Of a DNA stretch of 40,464 bases, positions 12,981-19,489 are shown piece after piece (within the stretch, counting starts at the first letter, position 1; the number at the start of each line of letters is the position of its first letter). The position numbers were made by a program, and so were the translations under genes. Source of the DNA: an uncultured Actinomycetes bacterium (lineage in GTDB: Bacteria > Actinomycetota > Actinomycetes > Nanopelagicales > Nanopelagicaceae); NCBI GenBank assembly GCA_903924485.1, contig CAIYBL010000174.1, positions 1-40,464 of the forward strand, written 5' to 3'. The notes under the pieces were generated by a model. The model was not told the origin of the DNA, did not search any database, and saw only the letters and a program-made list of their open reading frames with translations.

Positions 12981-13838
12981 ATGACTGAAACCGCTCTGCT
13001 ACAAGCTCTATCACGGCAGGATCGACGAACTCACTGGGAACTGGTGAAGCGAATTTCACTGAACTTCCCAACCCACCACCCACAAGGTTTGGCTTTCGCG
13101 GGAGATTATATTTTTCTCTCTTCGGTGGAAGTTCTAGATCCGCCTGCGAATGTCTTCGACAAAGTTCTCTCTACTCCGGGCCGTGGTGTCGGCCATATGT
13201 TCGTGTTGGACAAAGAAGGACACCTGGTGCGAGACATCCTGATCGGTGAAGGCGATATGTATCACCCGGGTGGAATTGATTTTGATGGCACGAATATATG
13301 GGTTCCCGTTGGGGAGTACCGCCCAGGAGCCAACAGCATGATGCTCACTATTGATCCAAAGACCCTCGCGGTCACCGAACGCTTTCGGGTAGCAGACTCG
13401 ATTGGTTGGACAGTTAGCGACGCTGAGAGTGGCACCATCTATGGTGGAAATTGGGGCTCTCGGCTCTTCTATTCCTGGAGCAACAATGGCGAGGAACGCG
13501 ATTGTTGGGAAAACCCAAGTGATTTCATCGACTACCAGGACTGCCAGTTCGCTGGAAATGGTCTAGCGGTGTGCAGTGGGATCGCCGTCCTTCCTGTGCC
13601 TGATAGTCAGGCGGAGTATGAACTGGGAGGAGCGGCGATCGTTGATTTTATTAACCACCGTATTGTCTTCGAAACCCCAATTCAGGTCTTTAGTTCGGGG
13701 GGTCACGTCGTCACGCGCAACCCATTCGCGCTCACCAGCGATGTTAGTAACCTATTCCTTCATGTCGCCCCAGATGATGGCTTTGATCTCCACGGAACCG
13801 AATTGCTCACCTATAGGGCACCAATTGGGAAGGGCTAG
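12981..13838 (+). CDS. DUF6454-like protein (beta-propeller-like, unknown function)
   Basis: 285-aa ORF; HHPQGLAFAGDYIFLSSVEV, GHMFVLDKEGHLVRDILIGEGDMYHPGGIDFDGTNIWVPVGEY; family name from memory, not searched. Confidence 0.6.
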   Translation: MTETALLQALSRQDRRTHWELVKRISLNFPTHHPQGLAFAGDYIFLSSVEVLDPPANVFDKVLSTPGRGVGHMFVLDKEGHLVRDILIGEGDMYHPGGIDFDGTNIWVPVGEYRPGANSMMLTIDPKTLAVTERFRVADSIGWTVSDAESGTIYGGNWGSRLFYSWSNNGEERDCWENPSDFIDYQDCQFAGNGLAVCSGIAVLPVPDSQAEYELGGAAIVDFINHRIVFETPIQVFSSGGHVVTRNPFALTSDVSNLFLHVAPDDGFDLHGTELLTYRAPIGKG

Positions 13839-13977
13839 CGTAACGAAAGTGTTATAAAGGGACCACTTCGTAGGCGTGCAGTGTTTGTGTTCTATTCACC
13901 TGGCAAATCTACTATTGAGTCACTCACGTTAAGTCGTGGAAGATAGGTCTGCTCTAACTTTATTCTAAGGAGAAACA

Positions 13978-15114
13978 GTGTTCAAGAAAAAATACACAAG
14001 TGTACTTGTTGCAACAGCTTTGGTTGCCCTTTCATTGGGTGCAAGTTTACCAACTAGCCAAGCAGCAACTACGACGATTCAGGTTTACATTTCTGGCGAT
14101 ACAAACGTTCAAGACCTTTGGGTTTCAACGTTAGTGCCAGCTTTTAAAGCAGCCAATCCTGGCTACGACGTCAACGTGACTTTGGATCTTCATGGAGTTC
14201 ACGATGCTCAGGAAACTGCAAAGATCACTGCTGCATATGCCACTCGCAAAGATGCTGGCGCAGATCTCATTGACGGTGGATTCGTTCAGCAGTTAGGTAG
14301 TGCAGGTTTGCTCTACAAGGCTACTGCTGCGCTAGTTCCAAACCTAAGTTCAGTAGGACGAAAAGTTGTTGCAATCGGTAAAGGTGGAATTCCATACCGC
14401 GCATCATCTGTACTTCTTGCTTACAACAGCACAAACGTTAAGACACCTCCTAAGAGCCTAGACGAGCTTCTTGTTTGGATTAAAGCTCACCCTGGTAAAT
14501 TCACATACAACGTACCAAGTGGTGGCGGAAGTGGTTATTCTTTCGTCCAAACTGTTATTGACAAATATTTAACTCCTGCAGAGCGCGACACCCTCGTTCA
14601 GGGCGCCAGCAAGGATCTTCAAACCAAATGGGCTACGGGATTAGCAACACTCCGGGGCTTGAACGCATACACATACGGTAAGAACGGTACATATCCTTCC
14701 AACAATGCCGAAACTCTTAAGGATATTGCTACTGGTCTCGTTGATATGGGCACAGTTTGGTCAGATCAGTTTGCTAGTGCTATCAAGGCCGGCACTATGC
14801 CTGCAAATATTAAGGTAACTCAGATTGCAAATCCTCCTTTCACGGGTGGAGCTGCTTACTTGGGAATTCCTCGCACATCAAAGAACTACAAGGCAGCTCA
14901 AGTTCTTGCTAACTGGGTACTTTCACCAGAAGGTCAGAACCTGATTGTGGGCGGCACAATGAACGGAATGCCTGTTATTCCAGTAACACAGTTGGATCCA
15001 AAGGTAGCTGCGGGCCTAACTGGCATAGATGTATCAAACTTGCGACCTACTTACTTCAGTGCCAATGGCAATGATTTGAAGAGTGCGTGGGCGCTTGCTG
15101 TCCCTGGTAAGTAA
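13978..15114 (+). CDS. ABC transporter extracellular substrate-binding protein
   Basis: GTG start with AAGGAG SD; Sec signal peptide MFKKKYTSVLVATALVALSLGASLPTSQAA; SBP-like body 'VYISGDTNVQDLWVSTLVPAFKAANPGYDVNV'; followed by two permeases and an ATPase. Confidence 0.9.
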   Translation: MFKKKYTSVLVATALVALSLGASLPTSQAATTTIQVYISGDTNVQDLWVSTLVPAFKAANPGYDVNVTLDLHGVHDAQETAKITAAYATRKDAGADLIDGGFVQQLGSAGLLYKATAALVPNLSSVGRKVVAIGKGGIPYRASSVLLAYNSTNVKTPPKSLDELLVWIKAHPGKFTYNVPSGGGSGYSFVQTVIDKYLTPAERDTLVQGASKDLQTKWATGLATLRGLNAYTYGKNGTYPSNNAETLKDIATGLVDMGTVWSDQFASAIKAGTMPANIKVTQIANPPFTGGAAYLGIPRTSKNYKAAQVLANWVLSPEGQNLIVGGTMNGMPVIPVTQLDPKVAAGLTGIDVSNLRPTYFSANGNDLKSAWALAVPGK

Positions 15115-15149
15115 TCAAAAGTACTAGTGACAAATAACGTGATGAGTCG

Positions 15150-16091
15150 ATGACATCTACTAAGGCAGATGTCGAAGTAGAGAGCCTCGGGGCCTATAAA
15201 GCTCCGAGGCTCTCTATCATCGGCTTTCTCATGGCTCTGCCCCCTCTGCTTTTAGTTGTTTTCTTTGTGGGACTTCCTGTTCTTATCGCCTTTACTTTCA
15301 GTCTCGGATTCACAACTGGCCCTAACCGAGTTCTATCGATAATCGGTCAAGAGATTCATAAGAAGGATCATTGGTGGGGCACTTTCGCCGCGTACAAAGA
15401 TGTTTATCATGATCCGCGTTTTGCGGGAGATATGCGGACCACTCTTGCTATCACAACCATTTCTACGACACTCGTCTTGCTTATGGCTCTTGGCATCGGC
15501 ATCTATCAAAGGATGATTGGTGGGCGTCTGGCTGGTGTTATGACGGCGCTGACTCTGGTTCCTCTCTTTGTCCCAGTGGTTATTGCATCATGGGCCATTC
15601 ACACTTTCTATGCTGGCGATGGCTTTATGCGCACATTCTTTTCTCAATTTGGCATTAACTTTCCGACACTTACCTCCACTTCTTCTGCAATCGCTATTGG
15701 AACTATTTGGACTTCATTGCCTTTTGCTATTTTGATGGTTACCTCGGGATTGCAATCGATACCGGATGCTCTTATAGAAACCGCACAAGATGCTGGAGCA
15801 GGCTTTTTTAGAATTGTCAGAACTGTGTTGATTCCGCTGGCGATTACACCGATTGTAATTGCGGGTACCTTTACCGCAATTGGAATCTTAGGTTCCTTTA
15901 CAATTCCACTCTTTTTGGGACCAAATCAGCCCACGATGCTTGGAGTTGAGATATCGAACTTCTTTGGCGCATATAACCGACCACAGCAATCAATCGTTAT
16001 GGCATTCATAGTCTTTGCGGCAGCATCAGGAATTGCACTCATTTACATCTGGGCAAATGTGCGCAGCGCAAAACAGAGCGGACGCATCTAA
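15150..16091 (+). CDS. ABC transporter permease
   Basis: Multi-TM; EAA-loop-like 'ALIETAQDAGAGFFRIVRTVLIPLAITPI'. Confidence 0.9.
   Translation: MTSTKADVEVESLGAYKAPRLSIIGFLMALPPLLLVVFFVGLPVLIAFTFSLGFTTGPNRVLSIIGQEIHKKDHWWGTFAAYKDVYHDPRFAGDMRTTLAITTISTTLVLLMALGIGIYQRMIGGRLAGVMTALTLVPLFVPVVIASWAIHTFYAGDGFMRTFFSQFGINFPTLTSTSSAIAIGTIWTSLPFAILMVTSGLQSIPDALIETAQDAGAGFFRIVRTVLIPLAITPIVIAGTFTAIGILGSFTIPLFLGPNQPTMLGVEISNFFGAYNRPQQSIVMAFIVFAAASGIALIYIWANVRSAKQSGRI
15151..15174 (+). promoter_or_regulatory. RNA hairpin I at the SBP/permease junction
   Basis: GACATCT-ACTAAGGC-AGATGTC, 7-bp perfect stem plus a T-G pair; contains two of the three nt of the permease start codon at 15150. Confidence 0.55.
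15177..15217 (+). promoter_or_regulatory. Long RNA hairpin II at the SBP/permease junction
   Basis: TAGAGAGCCTCGGGGC-CTATAAA-GCTCCGAGGCTCTCTA: 16-bp stem (one G-U), 7-nt loop; no immediate U-tract. Confidence 0.75.
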
Positions 16092-16930
16092 TGGCAAAGC
16101 AGGAGAAATCGCGGGCAAAATCAAGCTCGCCGATAGTGAAATTTTTCCTTGTCCTATTTATGTTGGCAATGGCCTTCTTTATTTTGGGTCCTCTCCTCTG
16201 GCTCTCAATCCACGCCTTTGTAACTAATTGGACCTACCCAAATATTTACCCGGATGGCTGGACGTGGCACTGGTGGACGCAAGTCTTTGCCGATTCAGCC
16301 CTCGAGCGCTCAATTCGAAACTCACTAATAATCAGCCCAATCGTGGTGATTCTGTCGATGATTATTTGCCTTCCTGCGGCTTACGCTGCAGGACGCATGC
16401 AATATGCAGGCCGCAAGACTTTTCTCATTGGAATGTTCGCGGCCAACTCTTTCCCAAAAATCGGCCTTTTTGCATCGATTGCGACTCTCTACTACGCACT
16501 CAACCTCATGGGCACTGTTGTTGGAGTAATTATTATCCAGCTGCTCGGAACAATTATTTACATGACATGGATTCCGGCTGCAGCCTTTGCTTCAGTTCCG
16601 AGGAATTTGGAAGAAGCAGCCCGCGATGCTGGCGCTTCAAAATTTCGAGTCTTTCGAACCATCACTTTAAGAATGGCGATGCCAGGAATATTGGTAGCAA
16701 TTGTCATGTCTTTCTTGGCCTCCTTTGATGAAGCACAAGGTACGTATTTGGTTGGAGCTCCATCTATTTATACGATGCCAACAGAGATGTATGCACTCGT
16801 AGAGAATTACCCCATCCAAATCGCTGCCGTGTTTTCATTGTTGCTTGCCTTCCCTTCAGTACTCTTGATCGGACTTGCAAGGAAACACATCGTCGGTGGC
16901 CAACTCGCAGAAGGTTTCCAAATCAAGTGA
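16091..16930 (+). CDS. ABC transporter permease
   Basis: Multi-TM; EAA-like 'NLEEAARDAGASKFRVFRTITLRMAMPGI'; 1-nt overlap with the upstream permease. Confidence 0.92.
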   Translation: MAKQEKSRAKSSSPIVKFFLVLFMLAMAFFILGPLLWLSIHAFVTNWTYPNIYPDGWTWHWWTQVFADSALERSIRNSLIISPIVVILSMIICLPAAYAAGRMQYAGRKTFLIGMFAANSFPKIGLFASIATLYYALNLMGTVVGVIIIQLLGTIIYMTWIPAAAFASVPRNLEEAARDAGASKFRVFRTITLRMAMPGILVAIVMSFLASFDEAQGTYLVGAPSIYTMPTEMYALVENYPIQIAAVFSLLLAFPSVLLIGLARKHIVGGQLAEGFQIK

Positions 16931-16945
16931 TGAAAGAGAGAAGCA

Positions 16946-17965
16946 ATGACTGATTCACCTCGAGAAGATGGTTTAGTACTCAACGGCCTTACAAAGATTC
17001 TGGGTGGCCGTGTGATTATTGACAATCTTCACCTTGTCGTAAAAAAAGGCGAGATGGTTTCCTTGCTTGGTCCTTCCGGCTGTGGCAAGACAACGACCCT
17101 TCGCATGATTGCCGGATTTCTGATTCCTGACAAAGGTGACATCGTTCTTAATGGCAAAGATGTCACAACCATTGGACCAGAAAAGCGACCAAGTGCGATG
17201 GTCTTTCAGAATTATGCGCTCTGGCCACATATGACCGTCTTTAACAATGTTGCGTATCCATTGAAGGTAAGAAAACTTGCAAAGTCTGAGATTGAAAAGC
17301 GAGTTCACGAAGCCTTGGGCATGGTGAGTTTGATGCATCATAAAGATTCACGACCGGGGCAAATTTCCGGAGGAGAACAACAACGTGTGGCACTGGCTCG
17401 TGCCTTGGTTCAAGAGCCGGACATCCTTTTGCTGGATGAGCCGCTGAGTAACCTGGACGCGAAGTTACGAGTGAAGGTTCGCGAGGATATCCGTGACCTT
17501 CAGCGACGGTTAGGAATCACCACGGTGATCGTTACGCATGATCAGGATGAAGCACTCTCTATTTCAGACCGCATTGCCGTTATGAATAACGGGAGGATTG
17601 AGCAATTCAGTACACCACAAGAACTCTATGACCGTCCAGAAACAGAGTACGTAGCGAACTTCATCGGTAGCTTGAATCACATTCAAGGCGGCTATGAGAA
17701 TGGCCAGATCACCCAAGGCTCTGAAGTTGTGGGTATTCGCCCAGAAGATGTTCTCTTCAGCAAGGATCAGGTGCCAGGTAGTTATCCAGCAACTGTTGAA
17801 CTTGTCGTCCCACGCGGCCACTTTTGCGAAGTGTATATAAAGCGTGCCGACGTAGAACTTCGCGCCTTTATCTCATCTGACGTTCCGCTTGCCGGCTCTG
17901 CTGGCTTTGCGAAGGTCAACAAAGCTCTCATTTATAAAGATGGCAAACTCGTTAAGGTTGCGTAG
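16946..17965 (+). CDS. ABC transporter ATP-binding protein with C-terminal TOBE-like domain
   Basis: Walker A GPSGCGKTT, signature ISGGEQQRVALARAL, Walker B LLLDEPLSNLDAKLR, H-loop VTHDQDEAL. Confidence 0.96.
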   Translation: MTDSPREDGLVLNGLTKILGGRVIIDNLHLVVKKGEMVSLLGPSGCGKTTTLRMIAGFLIPDKGDIVLNGKDVTTIGPEKRPSAMVFQNYALWPHMTVFNNVAYPLKVRKLAKSEIEKRVHEALGMVSLMHHKDSRPGQISGGEQQRVALARALVQEPDILLLDEPLSNLDAKLRVKVREDIRDLQRRLGITTVIVTHDQDEALSISDRIAVMNNGRIEQFSTPQELYDRPETEYVANFIGSLNHIQGGYENGQITQGSEVVGIRPEDVLFSKDQVPGSYPATVELVVPRGHFCEVYIKRADVELRAFISSDVPLAGSAGFAKVNKALIYKDGKLVKVA

Positions 17966-17974
17966 GTACTGGGT

Positions 17975-19489
17975 ATGACATTTGCCTGCGCACATCGAGG
18001 TGACTCCAGTCGTTTTCGTGAGAACACGCTAGTAGCCATTAAGTCGGCTATCGACGCCGGTTCGCAGATTATTGAAATTGATGTACGAATAACTAAAGAT
18101 GGCCACGTTGCCGTTTTGCATGATTCAACCCTTGAACGTTTGTGGGGGATCTCATCTCCCGTGTCGGATCGCAATTGGGATTTTATTGCGAAGTTGGGCG
18201 AAGGTGACGACCGCATCCCGCTACTTAGTGAGGTACTCCCGCTTTTCGTGGGCACAAATTCAACACTTATGATCGACATGGAAGAGGCTGATCCTGCCGC
18301 GTTGTCTTTTGCTGTCACGTCCAAAGGTCCACTTGATCCGTCGCAAATTCGGTGGTGTGGAAATCTTGATGGGATGAAGAAGATTCGCTCTCTTTCCCCT
18401 ATCGCAAAGATTTGGATGCCATGGGATGAAATCACTTTGCCTAGCAAAATTGATATTGGAGATCTTGCCCCGGAATTCATTAATCTGCACTATTCCTTTG
18501 TAACGCGCGCGCGTGTGCAAGAGTTTCATGACATGGGATACCAAGTTTCAATTTGGACCGTCGATGACGAAGCGACAATGCGTTGGGCGCTGGATATTGG
18601 TATTGATTCAATTACAACAAATCAACTTAGCCTTCTTCAGACAATTATTGGCGAAGGAACTACAGAGAGCCAGATAGTTGAAAGATCAATCGGAGAAATT
18701 GATCTAGACAAGGCGATGGTAATTGCCAGAGATTTGGGCAAATGGGCGATCATGGTGGCAAGTTCCATGGATCCAGGTGAGATGACCTTGAAGGAGAACC
18801 CTGCAGACATCGTGACTCGTGTAGATGTCATGATTGAGGCCCATGTTCGGGAAGTAATCGCGACGAATTTTCCTGGGCATAATTTTGTCGGCGAAGAGAT
18901 GGGCGGACAATTTCAAGCAGATACTCCATCGTGGTATTTAGATCCCATTGATGGAACCACTAATTTTGCCAACCGTATGCCGTGGAGTTCATTTTCATTG
19001 GCGTTGGCTTTCAACCGCACACCTCTGGTTGCAGTAGTCATTGATCCATGGCGCAACTCTCTATTTGAGGCACGCGCAGGACGTGGCGCAAAACTCAATG
19101 GTCGCGAAATGAAAGTTGAAGATCAATCAGGTATCGCGAATCCACTCAGTAGCCGTCTTGTTTCCACAGAACTCGCCGCATATCAAGCGTGGCCAGGCAT
19201 GCTGGGTCTTCTCGAAGGCTTGGCTGAAAATTTTTGCACGATGCGAATTATGGGCTCGGGAACTTTAACTCTCACAGGCGTCGCTGCATCACGCGGGGTG
19301 GGTGCGGTGGTTGGACACTTCAGCCCTATTGATCACTTGGCGGCGGTACTTATTGTCCACGAAGCTGGCGGAGCAGTTTGGGATGAAACAGGAAAAGTTA
19401 ACCTCTTTCCCGAAACCGGCGGAGTACTTTGTTCAACTCAAGCCGCGGCTCAGCCCTTATACGAGATTTGGAAGCGAGCAATCTCATAA
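17975..19489 (+). CDS. Bifunctional fusion: glycerophosphodiester phosphodiesterase (N) and inositol monophosphatase family phosphatase (C)
   Basis: One 504-aa ORF. GDPD: AHRGDSSRFRENTL, EIDVRITKDGHVAVLHDSTLERLWG. IMPase: GEEMG, WYLDPIDGTTNFANRMPW, PIDHLAAVLIVHEAGG. Confidence 0.93.
   Translation: MTFACAHRGDSSRFRENTLVAIKSAIDAGSQIIEIDVRITKDGHVAVLHDSTLERLWGISSPVSDRNWDFIAKLGEGDDRIPLLSEVLPLFVGTNSTLMIDMEEADPAALSFAVTSKGPLDPSQIRWCGNLDGMKKIRSLSPIAKIWMPWDEITLPSKIDIGDLAPEFINLHYSFVTRARVQEFHDMGYQVSIWTVDDEATMRWALDIGIDSITTNQLSLLQTIIGEGTTESQIVERSIGEIDLDKAMVIARDLGKWAIMVASSMDPGEMTLKENPADIVTRVDVMIEAHVREVIATNFPGHNFVGEEMGGQFQADTPSWYLDPIDGTTNFANRMPWSSFSLALAFNRTPLVAVVIDPWRNSLFEARAGRGAKLNGREMKVEDQSGIANPLSSRLVSTELAAYQAWPGMLGLLEGLAENFCTMRIMGSGTLTLTGVAASRGVGAVVGHFSPIDHLAAVLIVHEAGGAVWDETGKVNLFPETGGVLCSTQAAAQPLYEIWKRAIS

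Follow-up and report, generated by a model that had tools for sequence, protein, structure and literature searches.

Importers usually have more substrate-binding proteins (SBPs) than channels, and how a single operon brings this about is only partly known. The question arises at an ABC importer locus in a window of 40,464 nucleotides (the whole stretch of DNA analysed). The host is an actinobacterial draft genome of 1.9 Mb in 189 contigs, with freshwater acI bacteria as relatives and Candidatus Planktophila lacus as nearest named relative. Positions 13978-17965 hold an importer set in the order SBP, permease, permease, ATPase, and an earlier note on this DNA had placed two tandem RNA hairpins at the SBP/permease boundary. 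Arm search and folding recovered both at the places given, with 7 pairs in hairpin I and 17 in hairpin II, together with an outer stem, P1:

13978..15114, + strand: SBP gene (SBP_bac_8 / SBP_bac_1; Pfam PF13416, E 1.1e-24), importer gene no. 1; the mRNA segment presumed to be protected
15144..15151, + strand: 5' arm of outer stem P1, pairing with 15219-15226 and covering the A and U of the start codon
15150..16091, + strand: permease gene 1 (BPD_transp_1; Pfam PF00528, E 1.9e-14), start ATG 15150 kept, frame open in all homologues
15152..15173, + strand: hairpin I, 7 bp (15152-15158 / 15167-15173), starting at the G of the ATG, from folding
15177..15217, + strand: hairpin II, 17 pairs (15177-15193 / 15201-15217), loop 15194-15200; the conserved element, from folding, covariation, synonymous-codon test and strand bias
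15218..15231, + strand: tail after hairpin II, CATCGGCTTTCTCA, no canonical U-tract, with U at 2 of the first 8 positions
15219..15226, + strand: 3' arm of P1, pairing with 15144-15151
16091..16930, + strand: permease gene 2; junction fold -15.6 kcal/mol, no strong hairpin
16946..17965, + strand: ABC ATPase gene; junction fold -15.6 kcal/mol, no strong hairpin

The hairpins and the permease reading frame

The SBP stop (15114) and the permease start (ATG 15150) are separated by a spacer of 35 nt. A separate promoter between the two genes was rejected, as a scan of 13700-16200 for promoter-like sites gave no excess over shuffles. An Rfam riboswitch or leader as the identity of the hairpin element was also rejected, since the Rfam 15 families above gathering threshold in the window were three tRNAs only. 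Directly 3' of the ATPase gene, positions 17975-19489 encode a 504-aa ORF in which a glycerophosphodiester phosphodiesterase domain (PF03009) is fused to an inositol monophosphatase domain (PF00459); next to the SBP/permease set, this fusion points to a Ugp-like operon for glycerophosphodiester uptake. A DUF6454 gene (12981-13838) lies directly 5' of the SBP gene and is a possible operon partner.

The arms of hairpin II (15178-15193 / 15201-15216) are 16 nt each and 94% complementary around a 7-nt loop, and folding added the G15177-U15217 wobble to give 17 pairs, two of them G-U. The predicted energy of -32.2 kcal/mol (z -7.2) was reached by 0 of 200 dinucleotide shuffles, and all 4042 of 4042 sampled 50-nt windows folded more weakly. 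A search for short-spaced inverted repeats across the 40-kb window found no other arm pair of at least 16 nt without self-overlap. Hairpin I is weaker (7 pairs, -9.0 kcal/mol, z -4.2 against dinucleotide shuffles); it was seen to recur with sequence changes in several relatives of genus g1, without a formal count. Folding of 15110-15240, which the earlier note had proposed, or of 15140-15230 formed both hairpins and closed them with P1 into a three-way junction, and the MFE structure paired all three bases of ATG 15150. P1-like outer pairings are present in most relatives; few individually beat shuffles (clearly L003, L007 and L033), and for this reason we kept a conserved three-way junction as a secondary feature only.

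The stem of hairpin II occupies +28 to +68 of the permease ORF (codons 10-23), and Watson-Crick pairing begins at +29 from ATG 15150. The 5' arm lay at +29 from the start codon in 7/8 homologues checked, from several genera, and the hairpin keeps a fixed distance 5' of TM1. Of 200 other genomes in the family, 22 yielded permease homologues, as did 20 loci in a GTDB set, with many genomes common to both. Every homologue has a start codon 5' of the stem and reads on through TM1 in the permease frame without a stop, and the only change in length around the stem is a deletion of 3 nt in the loop. Over the 57 nt spanning the stem, frame 0 had no stop in 23/23 sequences, and stops occurred in frame +1 in 15 and in frame +2 in 12. 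The earlier note had also considered an intercistronic leader followed by a start at ATG 15231. This did not hold: because frame 0 is free of stops across the hairpin in every homologue and ATG 15231 sits in the middle of TM1, which it would truncate, hairpin II lies in translated sequence, and translation very probably does not begin at ATG 15231.

Selection on the RNA structure

In 21 relatives among the freshwater actinobacteria the stem occupies the same codons but differs in sequence. The earlier note had named a lack of compensatory changes in relatives as grounds for abandoning its idea. Such changes were found: across 19 distinct aligned sequences, pairing held in 91.1% of base-pair cells, two-sided changes occurred at 11/16 pairs, and the covariation score was 0.407 compared with 0.213 when shuffled (0 of 500 shuffles). 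Sliding the arms out of register lowered pairing to 25-54%, and three relatives (L013, L014, L017) carried wholly different stems at the same position. The homologues do not count as independent sequences, several of the relatives come from metagenome bins, and ORFs were called by a simple greedy procedure.

Resampling of synonymous codons with the protein kept gave z scores of -3.8 to -6.7 in 17 acI homologues, with 0-2 of 400 resampled sequences as stable in each. Together with the dinucleotide shuffles, this bears out the earlier judgement that so long a dyad in coding sequence is unlikely by chance. Two Microbacterium-type orthologues gave a weak signal (4 and 12 of 400), and in L040 1 of 400 was as stable; L042, which is without the hairpin element, gave no signal. 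Among the acI-type operons, one with 68% permease identity (L034, CAMBGS010000004.1) stands under a record titled Bifidobacterium breve, which is probably mislabelled.

Every perfect dyad is also a DNA palindrome, and the repeat might on that ground be a DNA operator or a chance palindrome in coding sequence. However, the stem cells held 31 G-U pairs and only 5 A-C mismatches (P about 1e-5, among related sequences that are not independent), and therefore it is the sense mRNA strand that is preserved, not a DNA dyad. An operator is refuted by this bias and by covariation in which pairing is conserved while the sequence changes, and chance is excluded by the synonymous-codon and dinucleotide shuffles; we give this explanation next to no weight. 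Hairpin II is a selected mRNA structure, as seen in its fold, its conservation, its overlap with coding sequence, its mRNA-strand preference and its specificity for the SBP junction.

Hairpins at other SBP junctions

The best 50-nt fold served as the score of each of 176 co-directional junctions, which came from roughly 200 kb surrounding ABC operons in this genome, the window and P. lacus; the threshold was a dG of -25 kcal/mol or lower. A hairpin was present at 21 of the 26 junctions 3' of SBP genes, compared with 2/150 other co-directional junctions (Fisher 2e-20); SBP labels were assigned by hand, and labels, starts and threshold were our own choices, which makes these counts approximate. 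Permease-permease and permease-ATPase junctions had no such hairpin. The earlier note had suggested that SBP and permease are differentially expressed; as a general idea this is supported by the junction counts. The hairpin is not obligatory, being absent from SBP junctions at L102, L103 and L097 and from two with SBP-ATPase order. In the latter two, L118 and L128, the ATPase gene follows straight after the SBP gene (gap 0 or -1), and the hairpin is absent in both genomes examined.

Spacers longer than about 80 nt held the hairpin in intergenic sequence. Where the spacer measured -4 to 44 nt, the hairpin lay mostly inside the permease ORF (L105, L107, L109, L126 and the window) or across the predicted start (L111); a weaker ORF-internal hairpin (-21.0) was found at L114. 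In one case (L107:5782-7333, G000:C180) an SBP-like gene is followed by a peptidase-like gene in place of a permease and still carries a -35 kcal/mol hairpin after it; the hairpin therefore tracks the SBP gene and not the permease. A second side case, in P. lacus (L123:3067-4946), is an imperfect ORF-internal hairpin of -26 kcal/mol at +46 of a non-permease gene after permease 2; no other strong co-directional case outside SBP junctions lacks terminator-like features.

This distribution bears on a translational brake, by which hairpin I, P1 and hairpin II would bury the permease start and early codons and lower translation, with mRNA ends unaffected. Such a brake would agree with the full pairing of ATG 15150 in the MFE structure, with a stem that begins at +29, just past an initiating ribosome, and with the lack of an evident Shine-Dalgarno sequence 5' of the permease start. 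However, other SBP junctions carry their hairpin in intergenic sequence 80-118 nt before the start, where it cannot hide the start codon, P1 is statistically weak in most relatives, and L020-L023 start 5' of P1 and are left uncovered. Pairing of the start codon could add a brake here, but because the intergenic hairpins cannot do so it would not be the common function, and as the main role it appears improbable.

Stem length bears on RNase III, which might cut a long stem to split the SBP and permease mRNAs. The near-perfect 17-bp stem, which P1 extends, and the presence of an RNase III gene in the genome would allow this. However, most SBP hairpins here have 14-21 bp, which is short for an RNase III substrate, and cleavage would take away the protective end, leaving RNase III processing only a very slim prospect.

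An unrelated transporter showed the same arrangement. Its permease, on contig C169 (L109), has a start codon that overlaps the stop codon of the SBP gene, mostly in the form ATGA or GTGA, and a strong ORF-internal hairpin was present in 12/12 homologues, with synonymous-codon z scores of -2.1 to -6.4. In a small sample of the phylum, drawn from the best SBP matches and thus informative on existence and not on frequency, 17/28 SBP junctions carried a hairpin that surpassed at least 59 of 60 shuffles. Where the stem lay in the next ORF, L144, L161, L164 and L170 were clear by the synonymous-codon test (0-1/200), L161 with a perfect 17-bp stem after the SBP gene; at L168 the true start is probably later than called. 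In at least two unrelated transporters, one stretch at a fixed position encodes a protein N-terminus and also forms an RNA hairpin under selection; as far as the small sample extends, the same is true in other Actinomycetota.

The hairpin as a proposed 3' border of the SBP mRNA

The restriction of the hairpin to the SBP/permease border, its strength and its strand preference point to SBP mRNA ending or surviving there. On the best explanation, a stable SBP mRNA has its 3' end fixed by the hairpin, which would block 3' exonucleases, cause partial termination, or do both. We favour, with moderate confidence, a reading in which hairpin II separates the SBP from the permease message within one operon as a 3' exonuclease barrier, giving a long-lived SBP mRNA and a scarcer permease part. 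The hairpin would thereby probably let the cell make far more SBP than membrane channel; we infer both this direction and the blocking of exonucleases as the principal step.

Where a transcript is not extended, or where its 3' part is degraded or terminated, it would end just past hairpin II, and 3'-to-5' exonucleases such as a PNPase-like protein would halt at the very stable stem. The genome encodes Rho, RNase_PH-type exonuclease genes (a PNPase-like protein) and RNase III. The SBP mRNA would then be long-lived and the permease segment less abundant, while ribosomes starting at ATG 15150 could melt the stem and leave the permease translatable; partial transcription termination may contribute. 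The stem is placed in permease codons because the spacer is only 35 nt. Translating ribosomes would unwind it, and protection would therefore act only on untranslated copies, which counts against a stabiliser.

The main rival is a partial intrinsic terminator (attenuator), at which polymerase sometimes stops so that fewer permease transcripts are made, and which translation from the permease start would suppress. Its place and fold energy match the SBP-distal internal terminators of Ruminiclostridium seen by Northern blot, which have long stems and few U (PMC9045158), and in Streptomyces structured 3' ends poor in U have been given a class of their own (PMC8269248). Several U often follow the stem at the intergenic SBP hairpins here, and GGUUUUUUU follows P1 in some homologues. 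However, U content after the stem is generally low at the ORF-internal hairpins, the Microbacterium orthologues have no consistent U-tract, and the tail of hairpin II gave no terminator-like match, with 2 U in 8 nt where a canonical terminator has about 5 or more U directly after the stem. In the Clostridia study efficiency grows with U-tract length (PMC9045158). Convergent gene ends, taken as a terminator reference, had too few strong hairpins to define the terminator style of the genome. The low U content at the ORF-internal hairpins therefore favours a stabilising 3' exonuclease barrier over an efficient intrinsic terminator; termination as the principal role seems possible but rather unlikely.

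Intergenic SBP stem-loops are already known, and the new part is the in-frame placement of the hairpin in permease codons. In Clostridia, stem-loops after SBP genes act as leaky internal terminators, long in the stem and poor in U, and they also affect stability (Wu et al. 2022, PMC9045158), and in Type IV the 3' U-rich tract can be nearly absent. The window stem resembles them in lying directly 3' of an SBP gene and before the translocator genes inside an importer operon, in its long GC-rich stem, its energy within their range (-10 to -38), its poor U-tract and its putative role in SBP excess. They are intergenic only, whereas here the permease codons that hold the stem are translated and its codon position is fixed, with protein and structure kept together. 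The selective RNA processing and stabilisation (SRPS) stem-loops of the SLOFE screen are also stable intra-operonic stems at the 3' border of a favoured upstream cistron, with protection proposed; that screen kept intergenic stem-loops only and set aside ORF-internal ones (PMC8219983), such as the window stem. Both screens would therefore miss hairpins inside ORFs. HS-U-lack 3' ends, or I-shaped terminators, of Streptomyces likewise combine a strong stem with a tail of fewer than 3 U in 8 nt; they were mapped by Term-seq with 342 ORF-internal ends excluded (PMC8269248), whereas the window stem is ORF-internal. Our literature search, which did not reach subscription papers, found no description of an ORF-internal SBP stem-loop.

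In acI metatranscriptomes, SBP transcripts of several importers reportedly reach 1.7-411 times the median (PMC5574706), which fits SBP excess and does not show the hairpin as its cause. For uncultured, streamlined freshwater bacteria the hairpin offers a sequence-based prediction of SBP excess that is open to clean synonymous-mutation testing. A more speculative extension, which we consider doubtful, is that in Actinomycetota operons without an SBP-permease spacer the 3' border of the SBP mRNA lies inside permease codons, just past the initiating ribosome, where ribosome loading at the permease start and the hairpin would be mutually exclusive; this would act as an inbuilt switch that makes each transcript either an SBP or a permease message according to the occupancy of the permease start.

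At malE-malF of E. coli, REP/BIME elements, which are dispersed repeats, form a 3' exonuclease barrier at the SBP/permease boundary. The earlier note had drawn this comparison, and it is apt for the place and for the proposed barrier function but not for the element. A genome search with the stem sequence of hairpin II matched only its own locus, directly and as the palindromic complement, so that a REP/BIME-type repeat was rejected; unlike REP, the window stem is unique in its genome and lies inside an ORF.
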